This document shows positions 8,610-44,800 of a stretch of DNA of 64,000 nt, one piece after another. The notes beneath the pieces were generated by a model. It had not been told where the DNA came from, searched no databases, and saw only the letters and a program-made list of their open reading frames with translations. Position 1 is the first letter of the stretch. Each line of letters opens with the position of its first letter. The translations under genes and the position numbers were made by a program. This DNA comes from Hexactinellida sp. DTS-2022 (Eukaryota > Porifera > Hexactinellida): NCBI GenBank assembly GCA_028753945.1, contig JAPNXP010000002.1, positions 12,958,001 to 13,022,000 on the forward strand, in the 5' to 3' direction.

Positions 8610-9965
8610 ATGAGCATCTCTCCTCTCCAAGGCAGCACGAGCATGAAGCCCGGAATGATCCCCAGCTTTGGCTTCACTGAGGAGCAGGTGGCCTGTGTCT
8701 GTGACGTGCTGATGCAGGCAGGAAACATCGACCGACTCTCGCGCTTCCTCTGGTCCCTCCCACCTTGCGAGCAGCTCCACAAAAACGAATCTGTTCTCAA
8801 ATCAAAGGCAACAGTCGCATTCCACCAAGGAAACTTTACAGACCTCTACAACATTGTAGAGAACAATCACTTCTCTGCCATCGCGCACCCCAAGATGCAG
8901 GCTCTCTGGCTACAAGTGAGTTATCTATATAGATTGGATGCTATACTAGTTGATTCAATGAGTATAATTAATCAATACATCCCTGGTCTGGTCTTATAGG
9001 CTCGCTATATCGAAGCAGAGCGCGTGAGAGGTCGGCCCTTGGGAGCTGTGGGAAAGTACCGCGTGCGCAGAAAGTTCCCGCTGCCCCGCACGATCTGGGA
9101 CGGCGAGGAGACGAGCTACTGCTTCAAGGAGAAAAGCCGAGGCCTGTTGCGCGACTGGTACACTAAAAACCCGTATCCCTCTCCTCGCGAAAAACGCGAC
9201 CTCGCAGACCTGACCGGACTGACCACGACGCAGGTTTCTAACTGGTTCAAGAACCGGCGCCAGAGAGACAGGGCCGCAGAGACCAAGGACACGTGAGTTC
9301 CCATAGTTATTGCGCTCTGTTATACTATTCATGTTCTCTCCGCCCGTAGCGTGAAGCCGGAGAAGCGGGAGAAGCGCTCCTGCAGCCTGGGCGGCAGGAG
9401 GGACTCGGACGCCGGCGACACGGACCGCGAGAGCATAATGTCCCCAGACATCACGGACGAGTTCGTGCCCATCCGCCGCTCCTCCGGCTCCAAGGAGGAC
9501 ATCAAGTCCGAGCCGCGGGACTCCTCTAGCCCCCTGTCCGTGTCCACCCCGCTGGACCCCGGGGACCCGAGCTCCCTCAAGGAGGACGAGGGGCAGCAGG
9601 GGATCAAGCAGGAGCCGCTGCTGCCCGCCTCCCCCTCGCACATGCCGGACGTGTACTCGCACCTCTCTCAGTTCTTCCAGGCGCAGGAATCCATCTCCAA
9701 GTTCTACGCGCAGGCGGAGCAGCACCAGAAGCTGCTCAGCTGCGCGTACAACCCCGCGCAGACGGACTTCAGCTCCTTCGTGCCCAACCCCTACTACGAG
9801 ACGGGGGCAGTCTACCCGCCCGCCTACGGCTCCAGCGAGTCCTACTCGCCGGACCTGACCACGCAGGCCAGCGCCTACGCGGGCAACTTCTCCCTCAGCT
9901 CGGCCTCCAGTCTCTCCCCGGGGTCCGCCCCCGCCCCCTATCCGTACCCCGCCCCCTCCTACTAA
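8610..9965 (+). CDS. SIX1/2: SIX1/2-class (sine oculis) homeobox transcription factor
   Basis: Three exons (8610-8915, 9000-9292, 9350-9965) with introns of 84 and 57 bp join in phase to 404 residues. The SIX domain spans about residues 18-125 ([20 protein letters not shown]... [20 protein letters not shown]). The homeodomain spans about 127-187, with [15 protein letters not shown] and the recognition helix [16 protein letters not shown]. The WDGEE and [10 protein letters not shown] features are those of the SIX1/2 subclass. The C-terminal 200 residues are rich in Ser, Pro and Tyr, and hold two psi-K-x-E sumoylation consensus sites (IKSE and IKQE, near 9500 and 9602). SIX1/2 proteins bind DNA with PAX/EYA partners in sensory and muscle development. 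Exon 3 is strongly GC-rich. ATG 8610 is the first in-frame start; ATG 8643 is an alternative. Confidence 0.95.
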
Positions 9966-12982: not shown

Positions 12983-13897
12983 ATGGCTATCGCAATAGAG
13001 AACGCCGCACTGTGCTTATCCGCGGATGGCTGCTGTCCGCTGTGCGCCTCGCAGCTCGGCTCGGACAGCAGCCTGCAGCTGCCCTGCTGCCACTCGGTTG
13101 TTTGCAACAGCTGCGCCGCTGCCTACATCCGGGTCCGCATCGAGTCGGGCGAGCACACCGTCCCGTGTCCCAGCACGGCCTGCAAGCAGGAGCTCTCCGA
13201 TGAGGTTGTTAAGCGCTTCACGGATGAGAGCCAGCAGCACCGACTCGAGCTGCTTAAACTCAACGCAACAAAGTCCACAACCAAGCGCTCTTGTCCCAAC
13301 TGCTCCAGCATAAAGACCATCAGCGCAGAGAACTTCCACCAGATGAAGAAGGCGCACTCCTCTACAAAAGACTCAGCGAGAGTTAACCAGGTGGTCTGCG
13401 CGCGCTGCGAGAAGCCCTGGTGCTACTACTGCTACGCGCCCGTACACCCCGGCGCCTCATGCAAGCAGAACTCCGACGGCACCACGCTCTTCAGCATGTG
13501 GACCAAGGACTGGAACGGAGCCCAAAACCAGCAGAACGCCTTCAACTGCCCCGGCTGCGGCATCCCCACGCAGCGAAGCGGCGGCTGTCCCAACATGAAC
13601 TGCAACTACTGCTACTGCCACTGGTGCTACCACTGCGGAAAGAAAACCGACACCACCAACTTTCTCTACGGCACTCACTGCGGGAACAGCTGGGACATCA
13701 ACGCATGCGACCGAAAGCTAATATTCGGCAGTAAGAAAGCCACCAGACGACTGCGCAGGTTCAAACTGGCTCAGGAAATATTCGTTGTGTGCGTGTGCGG
13801 GCTAGCACTGGCTATAATATACCTCCCGCTGCTGCCGCTGGTTATCCTGCTCGCGCCTCCGATCATCCTTCTTATCTACTCATTAAAGGACATATAG
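12983..13897 (+). CDS. RBR-type E3 ubiquitin ligase with C-terminal membrane anchor (RNF217/RNF144-like)
   Basis: A single exon of 304 residues with a RING1-IBR-RING2 layout. RING1 runs from C18PLC to about C67 (CPLC...CCHSVVCNSC...CPSTACKQ). The IBR region lies at about residues 104-160 (CPNC...CARCEKPWCYYC...C). RING2 lies at about 189-218: CPGCGIPTQRSGGCPNMNC, with C202 at the position of the catalytic cysteine that takes ubiquitin as a thioester in RBR ligases. A hydrophobic segment at about 265-300 predicts one or two tail-anchoring membrane helices, as in RNF217, RNF144 and RNF19. The likely role is membrane-bound ubiquitin transfer; the substrate is unknown. Confidence 0.85.
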   Translation: MAIAIENAALCLSADGCCPLCASQLGSDSSLQLPCCHSVVCNSCAAAYIRVRIESGEHTVPCPSTACKQELSDEVVKRFTDESQQHRLELLKLNATKSTTKRSCPNCSSIKTISAENFHQMKKAHSSTKDSARVNQVVCARCEKPWCYYCYAPVHPGASCKQNSDGTTLFSMWTKDWNGAQNQQNAFNCPGCGIPTQRSGGCPNMNCNYCYCHWCYHCGKKTDTTNFLYGTHCGNSWDINACDRKLIFGSKKATRRLRRFKLAQEIFVVCVCGLALAIIYLPLLPLVILLAPPIILLIYSLKDI

Positions 13898-14044: not shown

Positions 14045-17000
14045 CTAGATAGTGGTTTGTAGTTTGGGCTTAGCCTTGACGGTATAGAATGTCATACCAA
14101 ACTTAATGACCGGATAGTTTTCCTTCGTGAGCGCAGACTTCTGCTTTGGATCTTCCGTCAGAATGCCAGTCACGCAAGAAGTAAAGTCCTTCTTCATTTC
14201 AAGCTTGAAGTTCTCATAACTGTCTATGTCCAGAAAGTAGAACTGGCTAGTTTCGAGTGTGAACACTCGCGGTACGTGCACGCGGATGCTGCCGGTGGCC
14301 TTGCTGGGCAGCAGCAGGACGTGGTCCCCGGCCCGCAGGTTGTTCACGGAGATCTTGTCTTCCTCAGAGGTCAGGTACGCATCCTTGTTGTGTATTATCT
14401 TCTCTCGCACTCGCACGGTGTCCGTTAGCATCGCCTTTCGAATGCAGTTCCGCTTCTCCTTCGGTATCGAGCTGTCCAGCTCCAGATGGCTGTCGTCGAC
14501 TAGTCTCGCTAGGCTATTCTCCGTCTCTTCCAACTCCAGCTCCTTCGTGATGTCCTCGAACCACCTGTTGTACTTCTCGAGTCGGAAATACAGCTTCTCG
14601 ATGAGATCGTTTTCTTTCAAAGACTGCTTCTTTAGTCTTTCCACCTGTCCAATAATTACAATAATAGAGTCCGGTTATTTTAGTAATAATTTATTAGCAC
14701 CAAAATTGTGTAATACAGATACTCTCGTTAGTACGAACACAGTTAATACGAATTACCGGATAAGACGAATAAACAGTTCCACAAAATCAGGTCCCTACAA
14801 TGGCTATTCAATGGATATTACTCAGATTAATACGAACTCCGGATAGAGCGAACAAATTTTTATCGTCCGTTGGTGTCGTATTAACGAGGTTCCACTGTAA
14901 TTGGCAGACAAACGCAAACCCTATGTTAAATTGAGAACATAGGGCTTGTTCCTAATAAAAGATGTTCATATAAAGCAGACGAAAAACTGTTCACAATATG
15001 CAGACCTGAGTCACCTGACTATATAGTCATAGCTTACCTTGTGGCTCAGTTCGTCTTTCTCTCGCTGAGTTTCCTTCAGTGTTTCCTTTAAGTTTGTCAC
15101 CTCTGGGTTCTCGTAGTTCTCCATCCTGCCCCCGCCTCCGCCGACCACGGCCGCCATGGCTGTCTTGTTGACCCTCCTGCCCAGCTTCTCCACTTTCCGC
15201 GAGTGCTCTGGTATAACCTCGTTCTCGAGTCGCAGCAGCTCCTCCTGCTGCTTCTCCAGACGCACCAGCGTGTTGTTGAGGCCCGTCAGCTTCAGGTGAA
15301 GCATGTCGTTAAAGTACTTCTGCTTTGTGTTCAGGAATATCATCAGGTCCTCGGACTTGTCCAGCTGCGAGTCCAGAGATTCTTTGCTGATCTCTCTGCA
15401 CTTCTTCTGCGCAGTTATCACCACCTCGTCGCTCGACAGCTCGCCCACGCGTCGCTTTATGTCTCTCAGCTGTCTCATTTGTGCCTCGAAGTCTCCCACT
15501 ATTTTCCCTTTGTATTGGTCCACAGAGTCCATAACTCCTCTCAGCTCTTCATCCATGGCGTGGAACGAGTTAACTTCATTATCGTACCCAGGCGCCTGCA
15601 TTGAGTCCACTGCATCCTCTATGCACCGGATTATCGTACTCACCTGTGCGTCCATGCGAGCCTGCGCTTTCTCGATCCGCGAAATACTCAAATTGAATCT
15701 GCCCACTGCGTTCATGCTGTGAGTGAGGAACGCCTGGTACCCGATGAGCTGCTGCTTTTGAAGGTTATGGAATTCCTCTACTGTCGACTTGCAAACCTAA
15801 TGCATTCAATGTTTTACTAAAATCTAAGATTATGTAATACAATAACTAACCTGCGGCAGCAGTATGGTATTGTTCTGTTGCTTCAGCTCTCGCTTGCTCT
15901 TCAGCAGCAACAGCGCTGATAAGTTTAGAGTCACATTCGTAGTTTCGTCGTACGGGAGATCCAGCTCCTTCAGGAGAGCACCGCTGACCAAGAAAATGTC
16001 CGTCTTATGGGAAGCCCGCATCTGATACTCTAGCAGCCTTTTGAGCTGCTCATTGGAAGCTATTATGTTTTCGTTTGTGTGCGACTCGTAGACTAAGTGC
16101 ATCTCCGCTGCTGGCATTTCTAGGAGGAATACTTAAAGTTACTGCTTACACTGCAGTTCTAGTTATTATTAGATACCTTTGAAATCCTTCACCAACGTGT
16201 CTACCAATTGCTCCCAGTCCATGTCCTGCCTTATGGGCACCTTAGTCTGCTGTCCCGTGTGCACGGATATAACCTTGAATTTTGAGACTGCTACGTCATC
16301 GACGCTCTGTAGGAACTTTCCAGTCGTCATGCGCAGCTGCGGCTCCACCTGCAGCATCTCTCGTATCATTGTCGATACGGTCAGCTTCATTTCCGGACTC
16401 AGGATGTCCTCTGTCTGCTCGGGGAGCTCCTTGATGTAGATGGGCTTTCCCTTTGGGTTAACCACCACTCCAATCGCAGTTCCTTTCTTGCGAATAACAT
16501 TCAACAGCTCCTGCATGGTCATCTGCATTCGGTGATAGAAGCCGTGTTCGCCTGATAGCACGAAGTGAATATTCAATGAATTATCATTTATCAAATAACA
16601 TCAAAAGTTAAGACTCGCGTATTAATGGACTTACCCACAACTACTCTGTATATGATAGCCCCCGCACTCCAGATATCCACTAGTTGGTTGTAGTGCGCGT
16701 TCTGTTCCACCACGCAGGCCAGCGCCTCGGGAGCCATGTAGACTGGGGTCCCGGCTGCCGAGTCCAGCATGTTGTTGATCTCCATCCCCTCGGGGCCCTC
16801 CGTCTTGAAGAACCGACTGTAACCGAAGTCTGCAAGCCTACATAAGAGTGTTAGCAACCGCAAAGTTATTCTTCACTCACTATCTCACCTTACATCCATG
16901 TCCAGCATGTTTCCGCCCCGGTACTTGATCAGGATGTTAGCCGGCTTGAGGTCTCGATGCACGATTCCTTTCGAATGCATTGCGTTGATGCTGATAGCCA

Positions 17001-17406
17001 TCTGCTGCATGAACCGGATCAGCTGGGCCTGCGAGACCCTGTTGGTGACAAGGTGCTTCTCCAGGTCTGTGTCGCACATTTCCATGCACATGTTCACTCC
17101 AAGGCTATTCTCATCCAAGTAGAACAGCTGTACAATGAACGGAGCGCCTCTGAGCGCTTCCATTATCTCGATCTCTCTCTTCAGGAACACCTTCACCTTC
17201 TCCTCCATGTCTATAGTCGACTGCGGGATTGCCTTCACAGCAATATACTCTTCGTCCGATTCCCTCCACCCCAGATAGACGGTCCCGAAGGCCCCCTTGC
17301 CCAGCTGGTTCATTTTGCACCACACGAACTCGTCCACCTGACAGAACTGGTTCTTGCTCGTCTTGCGCTGCTCCTTCAGCTCCTTCACTGTCGGGTACTT
17401 CGGCAT
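14045..17406 (-). CDS. IKK/TBK1-like kinase fused to ubiquitin-like domain, coiled coil and FIP200/ATG11 claw domain
   Basis: Six exons on the minus strand (17406-16889, 16837-16635, 16551-16177, 16119-15851, 15796-15038, 14644-14045) join with GT-AG borders and consistent phases to about 907 residues. Kinase domain: glycine loop G36KGAFGTV, K58 in IAVK, H150RD, D176FG, and activation loop with S199 three residues before GTPVYMAPE, the position of the TBK1 activating serine. A region matching the TBK1 C-lobe-to-ubiquitin-like junction follows (LQSVDDVAVSKFKVISVHTG), with a ubiquitin-like fold at about 325-412. A long coiled coil runs about 456-760. The last exon (residues 709-907) holds LRAGDHVLLLP, FYFLDIDSYE and FGMTFYTVKAK, which match the claw domain at the C-terminus of FIP200/RB1CC1 and ATG11. 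TBK1 phosphorylates autophagy receptors and the FIP200 claw binds them. This fusion is not an architecture I know. A ULK-type kinase is the alternative identity. Confidence 0.72.
14716..14897. mobile_element. pogo-like MITE inside the last intron of the kinase-claw gene
   Basis: The ends CAGATACTCTCGTTAGTACG and GTATTAACGAGGTTCCACTG are inverted repeats, with TA on both sides. It is non-coding. It sits in the intron 15037-14645, just upstream of the claw exon. Confidence 0.7.
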
Positions 17407-17837
17407 ATTCTCCTACGCTTATCTGTTTATGAATAAATGTCGTACAGATTGATACTCAAGTGATTTGAGCTTCGTATCCTAAGTTATACTGCATTGCACT
17501 ATGATCCTATTCGGTATCAAATTGCACGCTATTATGTAATTACTTCTGAAATCGATTGACAGTCACATAATATATAATATTACAAAAGCTTTATTATGAT
17601 TATTGTCGTTGCGCCATTCAATTGACTATTTGCTGTAGGAAGGAATCTCAAAAAATGAATTCTAAGTCGAATTCTTAGAGTGAAAAGGATATTTGTCTTT
17701 TCAGCATTTCCTTGGTGGTAGCCACAATATCCATCCAACTGCATTGTTGTAAATAATTGTACTGGAAATGTAATTTCATTATTTCAATTGAAACATTATA
17801 AATATTGGAATTGATAAGAATTAGAATATTCTGTACA
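17407..17837. other. Shared promoter region of the kinase-claw gene and CaMKI
   Basis: AT-rich sequence between divergently transcribed genes. No clear core promoter element or transposon was recognised. Confidence 0.35.
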
Positions 17838-18845
17838 ATGGCTGGAAAGATAAACTCTAAGATGTTCGGGGAGATGGTCACCAAGCACTACAAGCTGCTT
17901 GACGTGTTGGGGCACGGCGCTTTCTCCGAGGTCGTCTCTGCCAGGAACAAAGTGACGGGCAAGACCGTAGCCATAAAGTGCATAAACAAGAAGCAGTTAC
18001 TAGGGAAAGACGACCTCCTCAAGAACGAGATCGATGTGATGAAAAAGGTGAACCACCCGAACATCATACAGATGTTTGACGTCATCGACAGCGAGGCGTA
18101 CCTGTATCTGATAATGCAGATGGTGGACGGCGGCGAGCTGTTCGATGCCATCGTGGAGCGCGGCAACTACACAGAGGGCGACGCCAAGCAGATCACGCTG
18201 CAGCTGATGCGTGCAGTGGACTACCTGCACGACTCCGGGGTCGTACACAGAGACCTCAAGCCGGAGAACCTGCTGCTCTTCGACCGCTCGGAGAACAGCA
18301 AGATCATGCTGTCGGACTTCGGCCTGAGCAAGATCCCTGTGGGGGACCTCATGAAGACGGCGGTGGGCACGCCCGGGTACGTGGCGCCGGAGGTGCTACG
18401 ACAGGAGCCCTACAGCAAGGCGGTGGACCTGTGGTCCATCGGCGTTATTGTGTACATCCTGCTCTGCGGGTACCCGCCCTTCTACGACGAAGACGACATG
18501 CAGCTGTTCGAGCTCATCAAGAAGGGCGAGTACGAGTACGAGTCGCCCTACTGGGACGAGATCTCCAGCTCGGCGAAGGAGTTCATCGCGCGGCTCCTCA
18601 CACTGAACCCTAAACTGCGAATGTCCTGCAAGGACGCACTGGTGCACCCGTGGATGAAGACGGACAAACACGGGTCTGTCCACGTGAACTTCAGCGGACA
18701 GATGAGCATGACAAAAAGTCGGAAAAAATGGGCCAAAATAGTGAACGCTGCTGTCCTAATTCAGCGAATGAAAGCAGGCATAGAGGAGAAGGCATGCGAG
18801 GACAAACCCAAGTTGGAGGGAGCCTCCAAGTACCCAGAGGACTAG
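17838..18845 (+). CDS. CAMK1: Calcium/calmodulin-dependent protein kinase type I
   Basis: A single exon of 335 residues, close to the family length. Kinase motifs: glycine loop G25HGAFSEV, K47 in VAIK, H137RDLKPEN, D160FG and VGTPGYVAPE. T174 lies at the position phosphorylated by CaM-kinase kinase (T177 in human CaMKI). The segment after the kinase, about 285-313 (MTKSRKKWAKIVNAAVLIQR), is the autoinhibitory and calmodulin-binding helix, with W298 as the bulky anchor. It acts in the cytosol or nucleus as a calcium effector. I start at ATG 17838 because the preceding in-frame non-ATG extension has no homology. Confidence 0.95.
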   Translation: MAGKINSKMFGEMVTKHYKLLDVLGHGAFSEVVSARNKVTGKTVAIKCINKKQLLGKDDLLKNEIDVMKKVNHPNIIQMFDVIDSEAYLYLIMQMVDGGELFDAIVERGNYTEGDAKQITLQLMRAVDYLHDSGVVHRDLKPENLLLFDRSENSKIMLSDFGLSKIPVGDLMKTAVGTPGYVAPEVLRQEPYSKAVDLWSIGVIVYILLCGYPPFYDEDDMQLFELIKKGEYEYESPYWDEISSSAKEFIARLLTLNPKLRMSCKDALVHPWMKTDKHGSVHVNFSGQMSMTKSRKKWAKIVNAAVLIQRMKAGIEEKACEDKPKLEGASKYPED

Positions 18846-22080: not shown

Positions 22081-24336
22081 ATGAGCACTTCATTCACTAT
22101 TCAGTCGGATTCCTACCCCGCCCTGGAGCCCGTATCCCTGCGCCCCGGCAGTCTCTCAGTGGGCAGGGGGCCTCTGCTCAGAGTGACAGACAGGTCTGTC
22201 TCTCGAAGCCATGCTGAGCTCTCGCTGGATCCTGATACGGACAAACTGGCTATTCGGTCCGTACATACAAATCCAACTTTTGTGTACAAAGTCGGTTCTG
22301 ATAAAACCGTAGTACTCAGCAAGGGCCAGGAAATTGAACTGTCTGGTGGAGACAAGTTCTCCTTTCTTCCAGAAAAGTTAGTCTTCCGAGTTTTTAGCTC
22401 TGGAAAAGTTTGTTCTTCTTCCGAACAGACACTGTACTTGCCTATGGTGAGTGAGATTGATGCTACGCAGCCAATAGATGGGGACCTTGTACAGCTAGCT
22501 AGTGCAGACATAGACAGGAGTGAGACACTGTACTTGCCTACGGGGAGTGAGATTGATGCTACGCAGCCAATAGATGGGGACCTTGTACAGCTAGCTAGTG
22601 TAGACATAGACAGGAGTGAGACACTGTACTTGCCTACGGGGAGTGAGATTGATGCTACGCAGCCAATAGATGGGGACCTTGTAGAGCTAGCTAGTGCAGA
22701 CATAGACAGGAGTGAGACACTGTACTTGCCTATGGTGAGTGAGATTGATGCTACGCAGCCAATAGATGGGGACCTTGTACAGCTAGCTAGTGTAGACATA
22801 GAGAGGAGTGAGACTCTGTACTTGCCTACGGGGAGTGAGATTGATGCTACGCAGCCAATAGATGGGGACCTTGTAGAGCTAGCTAGTGCAGACATAGACA
22901 GGAGTGAGACACTGTACTTGCCTATGGGGAGTGAGATTGATGCTACGCAGCCAATAGATGGGGACCTTGTACAGCTAGCTAGTGTAGACATAGACAGGAG
23001 TGAGACACTGTACTTGCCTATGGGGAGTGAGATTGATGCTACGCAGCCAATAGATGGGGACCTTGTAGAGCTAGCTAGTGCAGACATAGACAGGAGTGAG
23101 ACACTGTACTTGCCTATGGGGAGTGAGATTGATGCTACGCAGCCAATAGATGGGGACCTTGTACAGCTAGCTAGTGTAGACATAGAGAGGAGTGAGACTC
23201 TGTACTTGCCTACGGGGAGTGAGATTGATGCTACGCAGCCAATAGATGGGGACCTTGTACAGCTAGCTAGTGTAGACATAGACAGGAGTGAGACACTGTA
23301 CTTGCCTATGGGGAGTGAGATTGATGCTACGCAGCCAATAGATGGGGACCTTGTAGAGCTAGCTAGTGCAGACATAGAGAGGAGTGAGATGCTGTACTTG
23401 CCTATGGGGAGTGAGATTGATGCTACGCAGCCAATAGATGGGGACCTTGTACAGCTAGCTAGTGTAGACATAGACAGGAGTGAGACATTAACAGAAACAG
23501 TAAAAGAGCTCAACTCGAATTATATGGACTCGGAAAGTAGCGCTTCACAGCATATTCCACACAAAAAGCGCAAGCTCCCTCTTTGGATGTTGGAAGACGC
23601 CAAACCGGATGTTCCAACCAGCAAGAAAACTAAGCCTAGCAGAGCGCCTACTTCCTCAAAATCTCTCTCCAAGGGATCCCCCTCTCTTGGAGGAGACTCC
23701 TCACCTATTAAACCACTGCTTCCGGTTGCTTCTGACAGCTGTATTAGCTCTTCTAAGGACCCTAGAGACGCCACGAGCCCGTTTCTACCTCTTGATTCAG
23801 CGACAGTACGATTGGAATCCTCAGTCGCTGACTCCTCTATCCCCACACCCGCGCCTGCCCCCGAGCCCTCTGACGAGATTGCTAGCACCGCACTGCCCAC
23901 TTGTCCATACGGAGCTGACTGCTACCGTAAGAATCCCGTGCACTTGAAGAACTACACCCACCCGCCTAAGGAAGACAAAGGTAGATACTCAACAGCTACA
24001 AAGGAATGTCCTCACGGCTCTAAGTGCTACAGAAAGAACCCAGACCACTTGAAAGAGTTCTCACACCTGCCCAGAGCCTCGGCACGGGAGCGGAAGCCCC
24101 GAGCAGCCAAAGATAAGAAGCGGAGTCTGCTGGACGGGGCGAGCGATGACGACGGGGAGGGGAACTCGTACGACCTGAGGGACGACTTCATAGACGACAG
24201 TGGCAGCAGCGACGAGTCTGCTAGCACAGGGGTGGAGTCTAGCGAGAGCGAGGAGTGGAGGCCAGCTGAGGAGGTTAGCGACCTGCTCACTGAAGCCAAC
24301 GACTTTGTTAGGAATCCTAAAATGATCCGAAAGTAA
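22081..24336 (+). CDS. APLF: APLF-like DNA-break repair factor with eleven 32-residue TQ repeats
   Basis: A single exon of 751 residues. The FHA domain covers about 1-107, with GR28-29 and S41RSH44 as phosphopeptide-binding landmarks. Residues about 117-468 are eleven near-identical 32-residue repeats (consensus ETLYLPMGSEIDATQPIDGD then LVQLASVDIDRS), each with one ATQP motif. A Ku-binding motif follows (K495KRKLPLWML). Two PBZ fingers, C608-x5-C-x6-H-x5-H627 and C643-x5-C-x6-H-x5-H662, bind poly(ADP-ribose). The acidic tail (YDLRDDFIDDS...EEWRPAEEVSDLLTEANDF) matches the histone-chaperone region of APLF. FHA, Ku-binding, PBZ and acidic parts are in the APLF order; the repeat array is an insertion between FHA and Ku motif not present in human APLF. 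Confidence 0.92.
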   Translation: MSTSFTIQSDSYPALEPVSLRPGSLSVGRGPLLRVTDRSVSRSHAELSLDPDTDKLAIRSVHTNPTFVYKVGSDKTVVLSKGQEIELSGGDKFSFLPEKLVFRVFSSGKVCSSSEQTLYLPMVSEIDATQPIDGDLVQLASADIDRSETLYLPTGSEIDATQPIDGDLVQLASVDIDRSETLYLPTGSEIDATQPIDGDLVELASADIDRSETLYLPMVSEIDATQPIDGDLVQLASVDIERSETLYLPTGSEIDATQPIDGDLVELASADIDRSETLYLPMGSEIDATQPIDGDLVQLASVDIDRSETLYLPMGSEIDATQPIDGDLVELASADIDRSETLYLPMGSEIDATQPIDGDLVQLASVDIERSETLYLPTGSEIDATQPIDGDLVQLASVDIDRSETLYLPMGSEIDATQPIDGDLVELASADIERSEMLYLPMGSEIDATQPIDGDLVQLASVDIDRSETLTETVKELNSNYMDSESSASQHIPHKKRKLPLWMLEDAKPDVPTSKKTKPSRAPTSSKSLSKGSPSLGGDSSPIKPLLPVASDSCISSSKDPRDATSPFLPLDSATVRLESSVADSSIPTPAPAPEPSDEIASTALPTCPYGADCYRKNPVHLKNYTHPPKEDKGRYSTATKECPHGSKCYRKNPDHLKEFSHLPRASARERKPRAAKDKKRSLLDGASDDDGEGNSYDLRDDFIDDSGSSDESASTGVESSESEEWRPAEEVSDLLTEANDFVRNPKMIRK
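22429..23484 (+). repeat. 96-bp coding tandem repeat, 11 units
   Basis: Eleven 96-bp units in frame inside the APLF-like gene, nearly identical at the DNA level. Alternating variants (VQLASVDI versus VELASADI, DRS versus ERS) suggest expansion by two-unit duplications. The antisense strand is also open throughout as a by-product. Confidence 0.97.
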
Positions 24337-38830: not shown

Positions 38831-41800
38831 ATGACAGATAATAACCTACTGCGGTCCCCGAAGAACCCCAATGTTAGATCTCCGTTCAGAAACTCTCTCC
38901 AGGAAAGCTTCGACTACCACGACTACCAAGACGTGGCAAAGGTAGGCTCTCCCTTCGGGCCCCGCTCCCAGAGCCCCGAGCAGCCCCCGGGGGCCGGCGC
39001 CCTCAAGGGGGGCAGCCAGACCAACGAGGGGTACGAGCAGAGCCGGATGGAGGTCGCAGGTGACTTTATTTCAGTCTCCATTTACAGAATACAGATAACT
39101 CCCGTTATAACGAGATAATCGAAGGGACCCTTGGGTTATCTCGATATAAGCGGGTATTTCGTAGTTTGCTGTAGTTTTATTATTGTTTGTGTAGCGTTGC
39201 ATGAAGCCCTGCAGAAGAAGACCTTCACTAGATGGATGAACTCGCATCTCGACAAGGTTAGTGACAGCTCGCACCAACTCGTGTCTCACGGCCTCTCTTT
39301 AGGTTAACCAGCGGGTACAGAACCTGTACACGGACCTGGCCACGGGAGAGAAGCTGGCTCTCTTGCTGACGATGCTGACGGACGAACCGATTGTGAGAAT
39401 ATATATAAACAGTGTTACAATATAACTCGTTATTGTGTATACTATCTCAGTCCCCTTGAAAGTCTTATCAATACATTTACAAATTACACCGGTTAAAATA
39501 CGAATTGCGGAAAGAAGTATACATTTTGACGTTCCCTTGTTGTTCGTACTAACGAGGTTCTGTCGCGCCAAAATTGGTCCGAGTCAAAACTGGCCGGCTT
39601 ACCAATTTTGATCTTGACCATTTTTCGTGACAGTTCTACTGTAGTATAACCGTTTTGTTATTGTTGTTTGTTTTAGAAATTGCCTGAGAGAGGTCATATG
39701 CGTTTCCACAATGTAAACAACACAAATTATGTGCTAGACTTCATAAAGAACAGAAAGGTAACACAACACAGAATGCATAGTATAGTATTGTCTTATCAGC
39801 TGTTCAGACTAACTCGCATTTAGCTGCTAACATTCTGTATGAATAGTGATGTCCCTGCTACTGAGTCTCTGTGTGTAGATTAAGCTGGTGGGGATAGGAG
39901 CTGAGGATATCGTAGACGGAAAGAGGAACCTAATCCTGGGTCTCATCTGGACTATAATCCTGCACTTCCAGGTAAGAATCAGCTGTTTATCCTAGCTAGT
40001 TCATACTTGCCATCCATTTCCTGGTAAAAAGATAGTATCCTGGATTTGATATTTGTATTTATTCCTGGGGTTTCCCGCGATTTCCATTGTTAAATGCTCG
40101 AAAATAGATATACTATAGTTTCTATTACTCTTTTGAGTTTTTTCTGGAAAATAACATTATTGTGTACACTAAGCCAGTATAAAGGGACGGTTCGATATTT
40201 ACATTTTTGGCTATTTTGTAATACAAATGATCTGTCACTGGATCCCAGGAGGTCGGCAAGTCCGCTAGCCTGTCACTGCACTCCACAGATATCTATGATA
40301 GTCACGCAGTCTGGCAAGGACCCCAAGAAGGAGATCATAGAGTGGGCTAGGAATGCTACGGAGGGCTACTATGACGTCAGCATTAACGACCTCACCACCA
40401 GCTGGACGGACGGACTCGCCTTCTCTGCGCTCATCCACAGACACAGACCCGACCTCATAGACATCACGCGGCTGGACAAGAACAAGCCCATTGAGAACAT
40501 GCACTACGCTTTCCAGGTGGCATATGAGGGGCTCTACGTGACGTCACTGCTGGAGCCAGAAGGTAGGCCACCATCCCTTCTAACAATATAGTGCCACAAC
40601 ATCACAATAATCACATATGAAATTACCTCGACAGATAAATCAATTTTCATCTTTTAAATTTATACTTGCGACCCTGTAGTTAGTGTGTGTGTTTAGACAT
40701 GGCTAAGGGCGTACAACACTGTAGTTAGTGTGTGTGTTTAGACATGGCTAAGGGCGTACAACACTGTAGTTAGTGTGTGTGTTTAGACATGGCTAAGGGC
40801 GTACAACACTGTAGTTAGTGTGTGTGTTTAGACATGGCTAAGGGCGTACAACACTGTAGTTAGTGTGTGTGTTTAGACATGGCTAAGGGCGTACAACACT
40901 GTAGTTAGTGTGTGTGTTTAGACATGGCTAAGGACGTACAACACTGTAATTAGTGTGTGTGTTTAGACATGGCTAAGGACGCACAACACTGTAGTTAGTG
41001 TGTGTGTTTAGACATGGCTAAGGACGTACAACACTGTAGTTAGTGTGTGTGTTTAGACATGGCTAAGGGCGTACAACACTGTAGTTAGTGTGTGTGTTTA
41101 GACATGGCTAAGGGCGTACAACACTGTAGTTAGTGTGTGTGTTTAGACATGGCTAAGGGCGTACAACACTGTAGTTAGTGTGTGTGTTTAGACATGGCTA
41201 AGGGCGTACAACACTGTAATTAGTGTGTGTGTTTAGACATGGCTAAGGGCGTACAACACTGTAGTTAGTGTGTGTGTTTAGACATGGCTAAGGGCGTACA
41301 ACACTGTAGTTAGTGTGTGTGTTTAGACATGGCTAAGGGCGTACAACACTGTAGTTAGTGTGTGTGTTTAGACATGGCTAAGGACGTACAACACTGTAGT
41401 TAGTGTGTGTGTTTAGACATGGCTAAGGGCGTACAACACTGTAGTTAGTGTGTGTGTTTAGACATGGCTAAGGACGTACAACACTGTAGTTAGTGTGTGT
41501 GTTTAGACATGGCTAAGGGCGTACAACACTGTAGTTAGTGTGTGTGTTTAGACATGGCTAAGGGCGTACAACACTGTAGTTAGTGTGTGTGTTTAGACAT
41601 GGCTAAGGGCGTACAACACTGTAGTTAGTGTGTGTGTTTAGACATGGCTAAGGGCGTACAACACTGTAGTTAGTGTGTGTTTAGACATGGCTAAGGGCGT
41701 ACAACACTGTAGTTAGTGTGTGTGTTTAGACATGGCTAAGGACGTACAACACTGTAGTTAGTGTGTGTTTAGACATGGCTAAGGCCGTACAACACTGTAG

Positions 41801-44800
41801 TTAGTGTGTGTGTTTAGACATGGCTAAGGCCGTACAACACTGTAGTTAGTGTGTGTGTTTAGACATGGCTAAGGGCGTACAACACTGTAGTTAGTGTGTG
41901 TGTTTAGACATGGCTAAGGGCGTACAACACTGTAGTTAGTGTGTGTGTTTAGACATGGCTAAGGACGTACAACACTGTAGTTAGTGTGTGTGTTTAGACA
42001 TGGCTAAGGGCGTACAACACTGTAGTTAGTGTGTGTGTTTAGACATGGCTAAGGACGTACAACACTGTAGTTAGTGTGTGTGTTTAGACATGGCTAAGGG
42101 CGTACAACACTGTAATTAGTGTGTGTGTTTAGACATGGCTAAGGGCGTACAACACTGTAGTTAGTGTGTGTGTTTAGACATGGCTAAGGGCGTACAACAC
42201 TGTAGTTAGTGTGTGTGTTTAGACATGGCTAAGGGCGTACAACACTGTAGTTAGTGTGTGTGTTTAGACATGGCTAAGGGCGTACAACACTGTAGTTAGT
42301 GTGTGTGTTTAGACATGGCTAAGGACGTACAACACTGTAGTTAGTGTGTGTGTTTAGACATGGCTAAGGGCGTACAACACTGTAGTTAGTGTGTGTGTTT
42401 AGACATGGCTAAGGGCGTACAACACTGTAGTTAGTGTGTGTGTTTAGACATGGCTAAGGGCGTACAACACTGTAGTTAGTGTGTGTGTTTAGACATGGCT
42501 AAGGACGTACAACACTGTAGTTAGTGTGTGTGTTTAGACATGGCTAAGGGCGTACAACACTGTAATTAGTGTGTGTGTTTAGACATGGCTAAGGACGTAC
42601 AACACTGTAGTTAGTGTGTGTGTTTAGACATGGCTAAGGGCGTACAACACTGTAGTTAGTGTGTGTGTTTAGACATGGCTAAGGACGTACAACACTGTAG
42701 TTAGTGTGTGTTTAGACATGGCTAAGGCCGTACAACACTGTAGTTAGTGTGTGTGTTTAGACATGGCTAAGGCCGTACAACACTGTAGTTAGTGTGTGTG
42801 TTTAGACATGGCTAAGGGCGTACAACACTGTAGTTAGTGTGTGTGTTTAGACATGGCTAAGGGCGTACAACACTGTAGTTAGTGTGTGTGTTTAGACATG
42901 GCTAAGGACGTACAACACTGTAGTTAGTGTGTGTGTTTAGACATGGCTAAGGGCGTACAACACTGTAGTTAGTGTGTGTGTTTAGACATGGCTAAGGACG
43001 TACAACACTGTAGTTAGTGTGTGTGTTTAGACTTGGCTAAGGGCGTACAACACTGTAATTAGTGTGTGTGTTTAGACATGGCTAAGGGCGTACAACACTG
43101 TAGTTAGTGTGTGTGTTTAGACATGGCTAAGGGCGTACAACACTGTAGTTAGTGTGTGTGTTTAGACATGGCTAAGGGCGTACAACACTGTAGTTAGTGT
43201 GTGTGTTTAGACATGGCTAAGGACGTACAACACTGTAGTTAGTGTGTGTGTTTAGACATGGCTAAGGACGCACAACACTGTAGTTAGTGTGTGTGTTTAG
43301 ACATGGCTAAGGACGTACAACACTGTAGTTAGTGTGTGTGTTTAGACATGGCTAAGGGCGTACAACACTGTAGTTAGTGTGTGTGTTTAGACATGGCTAA
43401 GGACGTACAACACTGTAGTTAGTGTGTGTGTTTAGACATGGCTAAGGACGTACAACACTGTAGTTAGTGTGTGTGTTTAGACATGGCTAAGGACGTACAA
43501 CACTGTAGTTAGTGTGTGTGTTTAGACATGGCTAAGGGCGTACAACACTGTAGTTAGTGTGTGTGTTTAGACATGGCTAAGGGCGTACAACACTGTAGTT
43601 AGTGTGTGTGTTTAGACATGGCTAAGGGCGTACAACACTGTAGTTAGTGTGTGTGTTTAGACATGGCTAAGGGCGTACAACACTGTAGTTAGTGTGTGTG
43701 TTTAGACATGGCTAAGGGCGTACAACACTGTAGTTAGTGTGTGTGTTTAGACATGGCTAAGGGCGTGTTCGACGAGAAGTGCACCATGACGTACCTCTCG
43801 ATGCTCAAGCAGGCGCTGCCGCCGCTGCCCGAGGGGAGCTCCTGGTCCGAGAAGGATCAACTCAAGCAGAGGTACGACGAAGTGGCCAAGTGGATCCAGG
43901 AAAAGAAGCTTTTGCTAGCCAAGAAAGAGCTGCCGGCGACCTCGGAAGACTGCAAGGTATTTACTATAGACTTAATGGCTTATGCAGTGTATATAGAATG
44001 GGAAGTTAGTTATAATTGGATTGTAGAGAGAGGTTAATATCGTGAACAGAACTTCTAAGGACTGTAAGATGAAGGAGACCGAGGTAGCTAGCATTCAGAA
44101 GTTCGAGGAGAAGATTAAAGTGAGTTGCTAGCTCTTATAAGGTAGTTAGACATACCTTACACTGCTGTGTAGATGATGACAGGGGCAGACAGGGACCAAA
44201 GCGGGTACCTGGACATAGACGGTCTCACGGAGCAGATCCGTCTGATAGAGGAGCTCTCGCAGGAGAGATCTGCCGAGCTCTCCAAGCTCTTCGGAATGTG
44301 AGTGTACGGCAAATCTCATAGTGCTGTAATTAATGGTTATGTAGACAATTTTTCGTCTGTTTAAAAATGAAAAACTTTTATAGACAAGCCCTTTTAACAA
44401 CTTACATAGGGTTTGTATAAGTTGAGTTCGCTTATTATAAAGTCTCTTTATTCACAATAAAATAACTGACTGTAATTAGATTGGAACACTCAGAGGAAAT
44501 CGCACACAAAGCGAGGTTAAAGTTAGAAAAGATCGCCGCAGAGCTGCGGGCTCTCGACACAGAGGTCCAGTCTCTCGGGGCTGAGTACGCCTCCTGCAGC
44601 GACAGCAAGAAGATAGAGAAGCTGAACAAGAGGAAGGAGGCCGCTAGCAAGCGAGCACAAGTACGCTATACAATGCAAATTAACTGATACTATTTATAGA
44701 CACAGTCACTCCGCTTAGTCGGGTCACTTTGGTCCGAGGGTAGTTTGAGCAAACAAAGGCGTGGTTGGTTAACAGTTCTGAGGCTACGTTTATGATTCTA

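Follow-up and report, generated by a model that had tools for sequence, protein, structure and literature searches.

The window (the whole 64,000-nucleotide stretch of glass-sponge DNA analysed here) carries a gene whose predicted product has a protein kinase in front, a coiled-coil region behind it and a claw domain at its end. Our main reading, to which we give a probability of about 55% on the strength of sequence comparison, is that this protein represents a sponge branch of IKK/TBK1-type kinases in which a claw homologous to that of FIP200/ATG11 would dock the kinase on receptors or adaptors. The predicted kinase core is intact, is conserved, and lies in one chain with the coiled-coil region and the claw. 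A preliminary description of this locus had proposed that kinase and claw share one polypeptide, and the same combination is found in Oopsacas minuta and Sycon ciliatum, as well as in other genes of the genome to which the window belongs.

Gene structure and predicted protein

The six phase-matched exons of the preliminary description are borne out. They run from 17406 to 14045 on the minus strand; spliced together, they keep the reading frame throughout and encode a protein of 907 amino acids followed by a stop codon. Introns 1-5 (51, 83, 57, 54 and 393 bases) are all GT-AG. The parts of the gene, in window coordinates, are the following:

Exon 1, 16889..17406, minus strand: residues 1-173, with the start codon, the kinase N-lobe and the catalytic loop HRD at 150-152
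Exon 2, 16635..16837, minus strand: DFG at 176-178, S199 in the activation loop and the beginning of the C-lobe
Exon 3, 16177..16551, minus strand: C-lobe with an IKK/TBK1-like insert; a ubiquitin-like-type segment begins
Exon 4, 15851..16119, minus strand: remaining ubiquitin-like-type segment and linker (by profile comparison only)
Exon 5, 15038..15796, minus strand: coiled-coil region
Intron 5, 14645..15037, minus strand: 393 bases, GT-AG; the junction flagged in the preliminary description
Exon 6, 14045..14644, minus strand: end of the coiled coil, pre-claw segment, claw and stop codon; the Pfam claw stretch covers residues 797-900 (about 14380-14069)

In intron 5, short TTCGTATTAA-like pieces in inverted orientation suggest, on visual inspection, the remnant of a DNA transposon; such a remnant would account for this intron being the longest.

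Pfam places a protein kinase at residues 31-322 (175.9 bits). Within it, K58, E78, H150-R151-D152, D176-F177-G178 and S199 are invariant in the six aligned kinases of the family, and the residues named in the preliminary description (K58, HRD, DFG and S199) are as it gave them. S199 occupies the activation position of TBK1/IKK and is Ser in all six. As to the ubiquitin-like domain, also claimed earlier, Pfam reports none in the window protein and the segment alone has no PDB match at E 10; profile comparison aligns 47 columns (score 27.2, probability 45%; 50 shuffles gave at most 16.0). A structure model of the Oopsacas protein, P0001, shows helices in the coiled-coil region, but at low confidence (three-row alignment, mean pLDDT 41.4). 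Among the Pfam matches of the window protein up to E 1 there is neither a NEMO-binding domain, the C-terminus being the claw, nor the ATG17-like domain PF04108, the N-terminus being the kinase.

It could be argued that kinase and claw are adjacent genes wrongly joined, or that the claw has its own start. At 393 bases, the intron between them is the longest of the five, and exon 6 contains a Met in frame (residue 780) just ahead of the claw. The earlier statement that no ATG lies nearby is therefore true of the frame directly upstream of exon 6 (no ATG in the 30 codons examined, and a stop within the last 11) and not of exon 6 itself. However, exon 6 aligns with one continuous Oopsacas protein (151 of 199 residues identical) which runs through the junction without a gap, in agreement with the earlier view that the claw exon is hard to read as a separate gene. 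Moreover, a single uninterrupted frame holds both kinase and claw in one paralogue on contig C6, as does one annotated Sycon protein. We regard an artefact of this kind as very improbable. By these comparisons the kinase-claw gene is real and its layout is no gene-model accident, given the end-to-end match in Oopsacas, the kinase plus claw in Sycon, the alignment of the relative P0002 and the paralogues in the same genome.

Other features were noted elsewhere in the window:

8610-8999, plus strand: open frame whose product resembles, by eye, the N-terminal end of SIX-type homeobox proteins
12983-13897, plus strand: 304-aa frame beside the kinase-claw gene, with an IBR domain (Pfam, 24.6 bits against a cut-off of 24.3) and a hydrophobic tail; its product is a candidate RING/IBR-type E3 ligase
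17805-18845, plus strand: intact 346-aa kinase (265.1 bits) in head-to-head orientation to the kinase-claw gene; by eye it resembles calmodulin kinases
22081-24336, plus strand: 751-aa frame that includes eleven near-identical tandem units with EIDATQPIDGDLV, APLF-like by eye, with two zinc-finger-like motifs near its end (CPYGADCYRKN and CPHGSKCYRKN)
40001-44000: GC skew of 0.285 in a 4-kb bin, the other bins being at most 0.108 in size

The claw and its sponge relatives

The identification of the C-terminal exon as a claw, made in the preliminary description, is upheld. Exon 6 alone scores 24.7 bits against the Pfam family ATG11 (PF10377) and passes the cut-off of 22; the whole window protein scores 19.5 bits (E 0.0011), under that cut-off. 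In addition, profiles built from sponge claws, from which FIP200 was left out, retrieve the human domain. With four claws (window, Oopsacas, P0002 and Sycon), eight FIP200 (RB1CC1) sequences come out on top in PDB at E 1.9e-4 to 6.1e-4, the sole remaining match having E 1. With seven claws, all eight human FIP200 claw sequences are listed at E 1.8e-6 to 4.7e-6, and the next match is at 1.5. When each of the seven is left out in turn, the human claw sequence still scores 27.3-33.1 bits against at most 6.7 for 4595 background frames, and column-shuffled profiles miss it in 30 of 30 cases. As a single-sequence query, exon 6 does not find FIP200 in PDB at E 10. Pfam detects the claw in five of the seven excised claws (window, Oopsacas, Sycon, the C8 exon and the nine-exon C6 paralogue, both described below) and gives no claw match for those of P0002 and the single-ORF paralogue. 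The structure models of exon 6 (two rows, mean pLDDT 44.5) and of P0001 are both too poor for use, and a Foldseek search with the exon 6 model, which is too poor to count either way, returned nothing at E 0.001 or better. On the family and profile matches, the C-terminal domain is homologous to the FIP200/ATG11 claw.

The full-length protein search scored 7998 candidates, and the best 120 of its 670 matches were listed. The best is a 909-aa protein of the glass sponge Oopsacas minuta, with 80% identity end to end, 75% over exon 6 and 68 of 68 residues the same over exon 2. The calcareous sponge Sycon ciliatum has a 1052-aa protein with kinase and PF10377 (37% identity over the kinase part), and P0002 has the kinase-claw layout by alignment. 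Both the Oopsacas and the Sycon protein have the kinase in front and the claw at the end, as in the window protein; their entries are named IKK-beta-like, names that omit the claw, and PF10377 is precomputed for Sycon only. A profile search of proteins from the activation loop onward recovered P0001 as its only family member; as P0002 and P0003, themselves part of the profile, were not retrieved, it is uninformative on other animals.

The genome (112.4 Mb, 18 contigs) contains two further complete kinase-claw genes, and parts of a probable fourth:

C6:18706-22095: nine-exon paralogue, 946 aa, kinase and claw
C6:5002227-5004557: single-ORF paralogue, 777 aa, with kinase and claw in one intronless open frame
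C8:2660.8-2665.3 kb: kinase exons of a fourth paralogue, 61% identical to the nine-exon C6 gene over 139 residues round the activation loop
C8:2765927-2766223: claw exon (PF10377), on the same contig and strand as the C8 kinase exons and about 100 kb behind them

The claw of the single-ORF paralogue scores 18.9 bits with the four-claw profile (E 4.9e-5, in a small set), and two weak claw matches (E 0.12 and 0.08) lie in the open frame of its kinase. The C8 claw shares 42.6% identity with that of the nine-exon C6 paralogue (94 residues, 82.4 bits) and is probably the last exon of a fourth kinase-claw gene. This probable gene (C8:2660778-2766379) would have its ends 100 kb apart, compared with 3.4 kb for the window gene. 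In the gap that separates the kinase exons from the claw exon, BLAST found no linking exons and a rough composition scan no coiled-coil-like frames; the only two stop-to-stop frames of at least 110 aa are repeat-like (119 and 112 aa) and on the opposite strand. A genome search with the Oopsacas protein gave 51 matches (exon-wise, best candidates only), and past residue 320 all belong to kinase-claw genes.

We also searched for the autophagy machinery itself. PF10377 has one match in the genome at E 0.001, the C8 exon (C8:2765927-2766223). This claw was considered as a separate FIP200 and rejected, because it resembles the claw of the nine-exon C6 paralogue and BLASTP against the human FIP200 claw gave nothing at E 10. 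No separate FIP200 claw was found in this genome, the only further Pfam claw being probably of the kinase-claw type. The ATG17-like family PF04108 has no genome match at E 0.001; neither have PF10033 and PF21127, which are weak negatives as their controls were silent too. ATG101 is present in the genome, and the ULK initiation complex is therefore probably present too.

Kinship of the kinase

The preliminary description called the kinase TBK1/IKK-like, a label for which core scores and phylogeny point in different directions. Against solved structures, a profile of six family kinases matches ULK1/2 best (206.6-208.2 bits), with ULK3 at 170.6 and STK33 at 159.7 bits, and TBK1/IKK is absent from the best 60 of its 2661 matches. 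Searched one by one, three full-length relatives each have ULK1/2 as top solved-structure match, TBK1/IKK again being absent from the best 60. Human rows of the IKK family (IKK-epsilon, TBK1 and IKK-beta) score 122.6-128.4 bits against the six-sequence profile. When the profile is restricted to the C-lobe and the region after the kinase, IKK-epsilon (15.0 bits), TBK1 (12.6) and IKK-beta (8.8) rank 4, 5 and 12; three unrelated kinases lead at 16.4-18.3 bits, and the best shuffle reaches 6.9.

The tree favours the IKK side. Among 36 rows, in which IKK/TBK1 is represented by three human rows only, the six family kinases form a clade (100/97) that is sister to IKK/TBK1 (93/88), and the pair adjoins ULK1/2; the partial C8 kinase and two rows of the same genome without match were omitted. 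The values are 91/62 without IKK-beta, and 80/56 without TBK1 and IKK-epsilon (two more long rows also removed). Profile-profile comparison from the C-lobe onward aligns 148 columns with IKK/TBK1 (probability 86%, score 43.5; 50 shuffles gave at most 17.2), compared with 39 columns for ULK (67%, score 37.6), where the alignment stops with the kinase.

A different reading would take the protein as a divergent ULK/ATG1-type kinase that has acquired the claw of FIP200, its own scaffold; receptors would then recruit an autophagy-initiating kinase with no scaffold in between. The best solved-structure matches, of the three relatives and of the six-sequence profile alike, speak for it, and a tree constrained to place the family with ULK1/2 is not rejected in any of three samplings (p-AU 0.161, 0.231 and 0.252). 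Yet the best tree prefers IKK/TBK1 in each of these samplings, and the match to ULK ends with the kinase whereas that to IKK/TBK1 continues beyond it. Furthermore, the window protein, the single-ORF paralogue and the relatives P0001, P0002 and P0003 have no ULK-type MIT domain (PF12063 or PF21127) according to Pfam, while P0009, an ULK, matches both; and the family has Ser at the activation-loop position, where ULK1 has Thr. We consider this reading unlikely. The kinase is probably an early IKK/TBK1-type branch, for which kinship with ULK is possible: the tree and the post-kinase alignment speak for the earlier label, and the core scores and the unrejected ULK placement (p-AU 0.161) weaken it.

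Compared with known systems, the window protein is like TBK1, IKK-epsilon and IKK-beta in its kinase, long helical region and activation Ser, and probably in its putative ubiquitin-like-type segment and its place in the tree, but its kinase core is far more ULK-like and it ends in a claw, whereas TBK1/IKK kinases end in adaptor- or NEMO-binding segments. ULK1/ULK2 (ATG1) have the best kinase-core score; unlike them, the window protein has no reported MIT domains and carries the extra post-kinase segment and the claw. With FIP200/RB1CC1 and ATG11 it shares a C-terminal claw behind a coiled coil, but it has an N-terminal kinase, no Pfam ATG17-like domain, and replacements at FIP200 positions K1569, R1573 and R1584.

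Claw pocket, function and origin

In FIP200, R1573 and K1569 touch phosphorylated or acidic residues, and yeast ATG11 is without both (excerpts of PMC7946963); p62 binding by FIP200 is almost lost with F1574A, R1584A and R1573D (excerpts of PMC6477179). Pocket residues were compared in three alignments, two of which leave positions 1573-1574 of the single-ORF paralogue as a gap. R1573 is conserved in none of the seven sponge claws and R1584 in one (P0002), and K1569 has a basic counterpart in one (Arg, in the nine-exon C6 paralogue); the window protein has L, N and T at K1569, R1573 and R1584, respectively. Position F1582 is aromatic in all seven claws, F1529 in six and Y1564 in one, and F1574 is Tyr in five. 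A pocket for a hydrophobic motif is plausible in the sponge claw. A FIP200-style phospho-switch is not supported, because the basic phospho-binding residues are missing from the sponge claws. These counts do not support the coupling envisaged in the preliminary description, in which the claw would bind phosphorylated receptors in the manner of FIP200.

For an IKK/TBK1-type kinase with a claw, we propose the following mechanism. The protein would dimerise via its coiled coil and claw, and the claw would recognise a hydrophobic FIR/LIR-like motif in a partner and so dock the kinase there; the partner would be either a receptor of selective autophagy or an adaptor in signalling. Crowded together on it, the kinases would then undergo trans-phosphorylation at S199 of the activation loop and phosphorylate the partner. 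The claw would be the kinase's own address, whereas mammalian TBK1 relies on adaptors and is localised through TANK, NAP1, SINTBAD or optineurin. The kinase-claw protein would not alone recruit the ULK complex, since it has no recognisable FIP200 N-terminal part.

The partner could also lie outside autophagy altogether, in which case the protein would be an IKK-type kinase acting in the NF-kappaB pathway or elsewhere in immune signalling, with a claw that binds a signalling adaptor. The genome has four Rel-homology matches, which leaves room for an NF-kappaB role; the database names are IKK-beta-like, and the FIP200-type phospho-pocket is not conserved. Known claws, however, bind autophagy receptors or autophagy proteins, and the presence of ATG101 makes an initiation complex probable. 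For FIP200 in particular, such binding is described in excerpts of PMC6477179 and PMC7946963. A purely immune role seems doubtful to us, and docking on receptors or adaptors is the reading we carry forward.

Excerpts of PMC10280926 contain zero mentions of IKK, TBK1, NF-kappaB, autophagy or innate. No description of a kinase-claw fusion was found in the open-licence literature. The earlier claim that no protein with this layout is described holds for that literature, with the qualification that two such proteins are in the databases under the name IKK-beta-like.

Glass and calcareous sponge lineages split very early. As the six kinases form one clade (100/97), a single joining event before this split is the simplest reading, and the fusion in both lineages suggests that the kinase of this group and the claw share one partner. 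In mammals, optineurin phosphorylation by TBK1 regulates FIP200 claw binding (excerpts of PMC7946963); one sponge molecule may do the job of two mammalian proteins.

A more speculative possibility, which we consider unlikely, is that kinase plus claw was the original animal state of IKK/TBK1, the ancestral kinase reaching its targets by means of the claw, and that other animals later replaced the claw by separate adaptors (NEMO, TANK, NAP1 and optineurin). If true, immune IKK signalling would have arisen from an autophagy kinase bearing its own receptor-binding domain. On the same speculative view, and since a separate FIP200 claw was not found, the glass-sponge kinase-claw proteins may cover part of FIP200's receptor-binding role. 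IKK subunits are reported absent outside animals (excerpts of PMC8763368), which makes sponges the place to look. Ultimately, the origin of IKK signalling becomes testable by asking whether a claw went with IKK-type kinases at the animal root.
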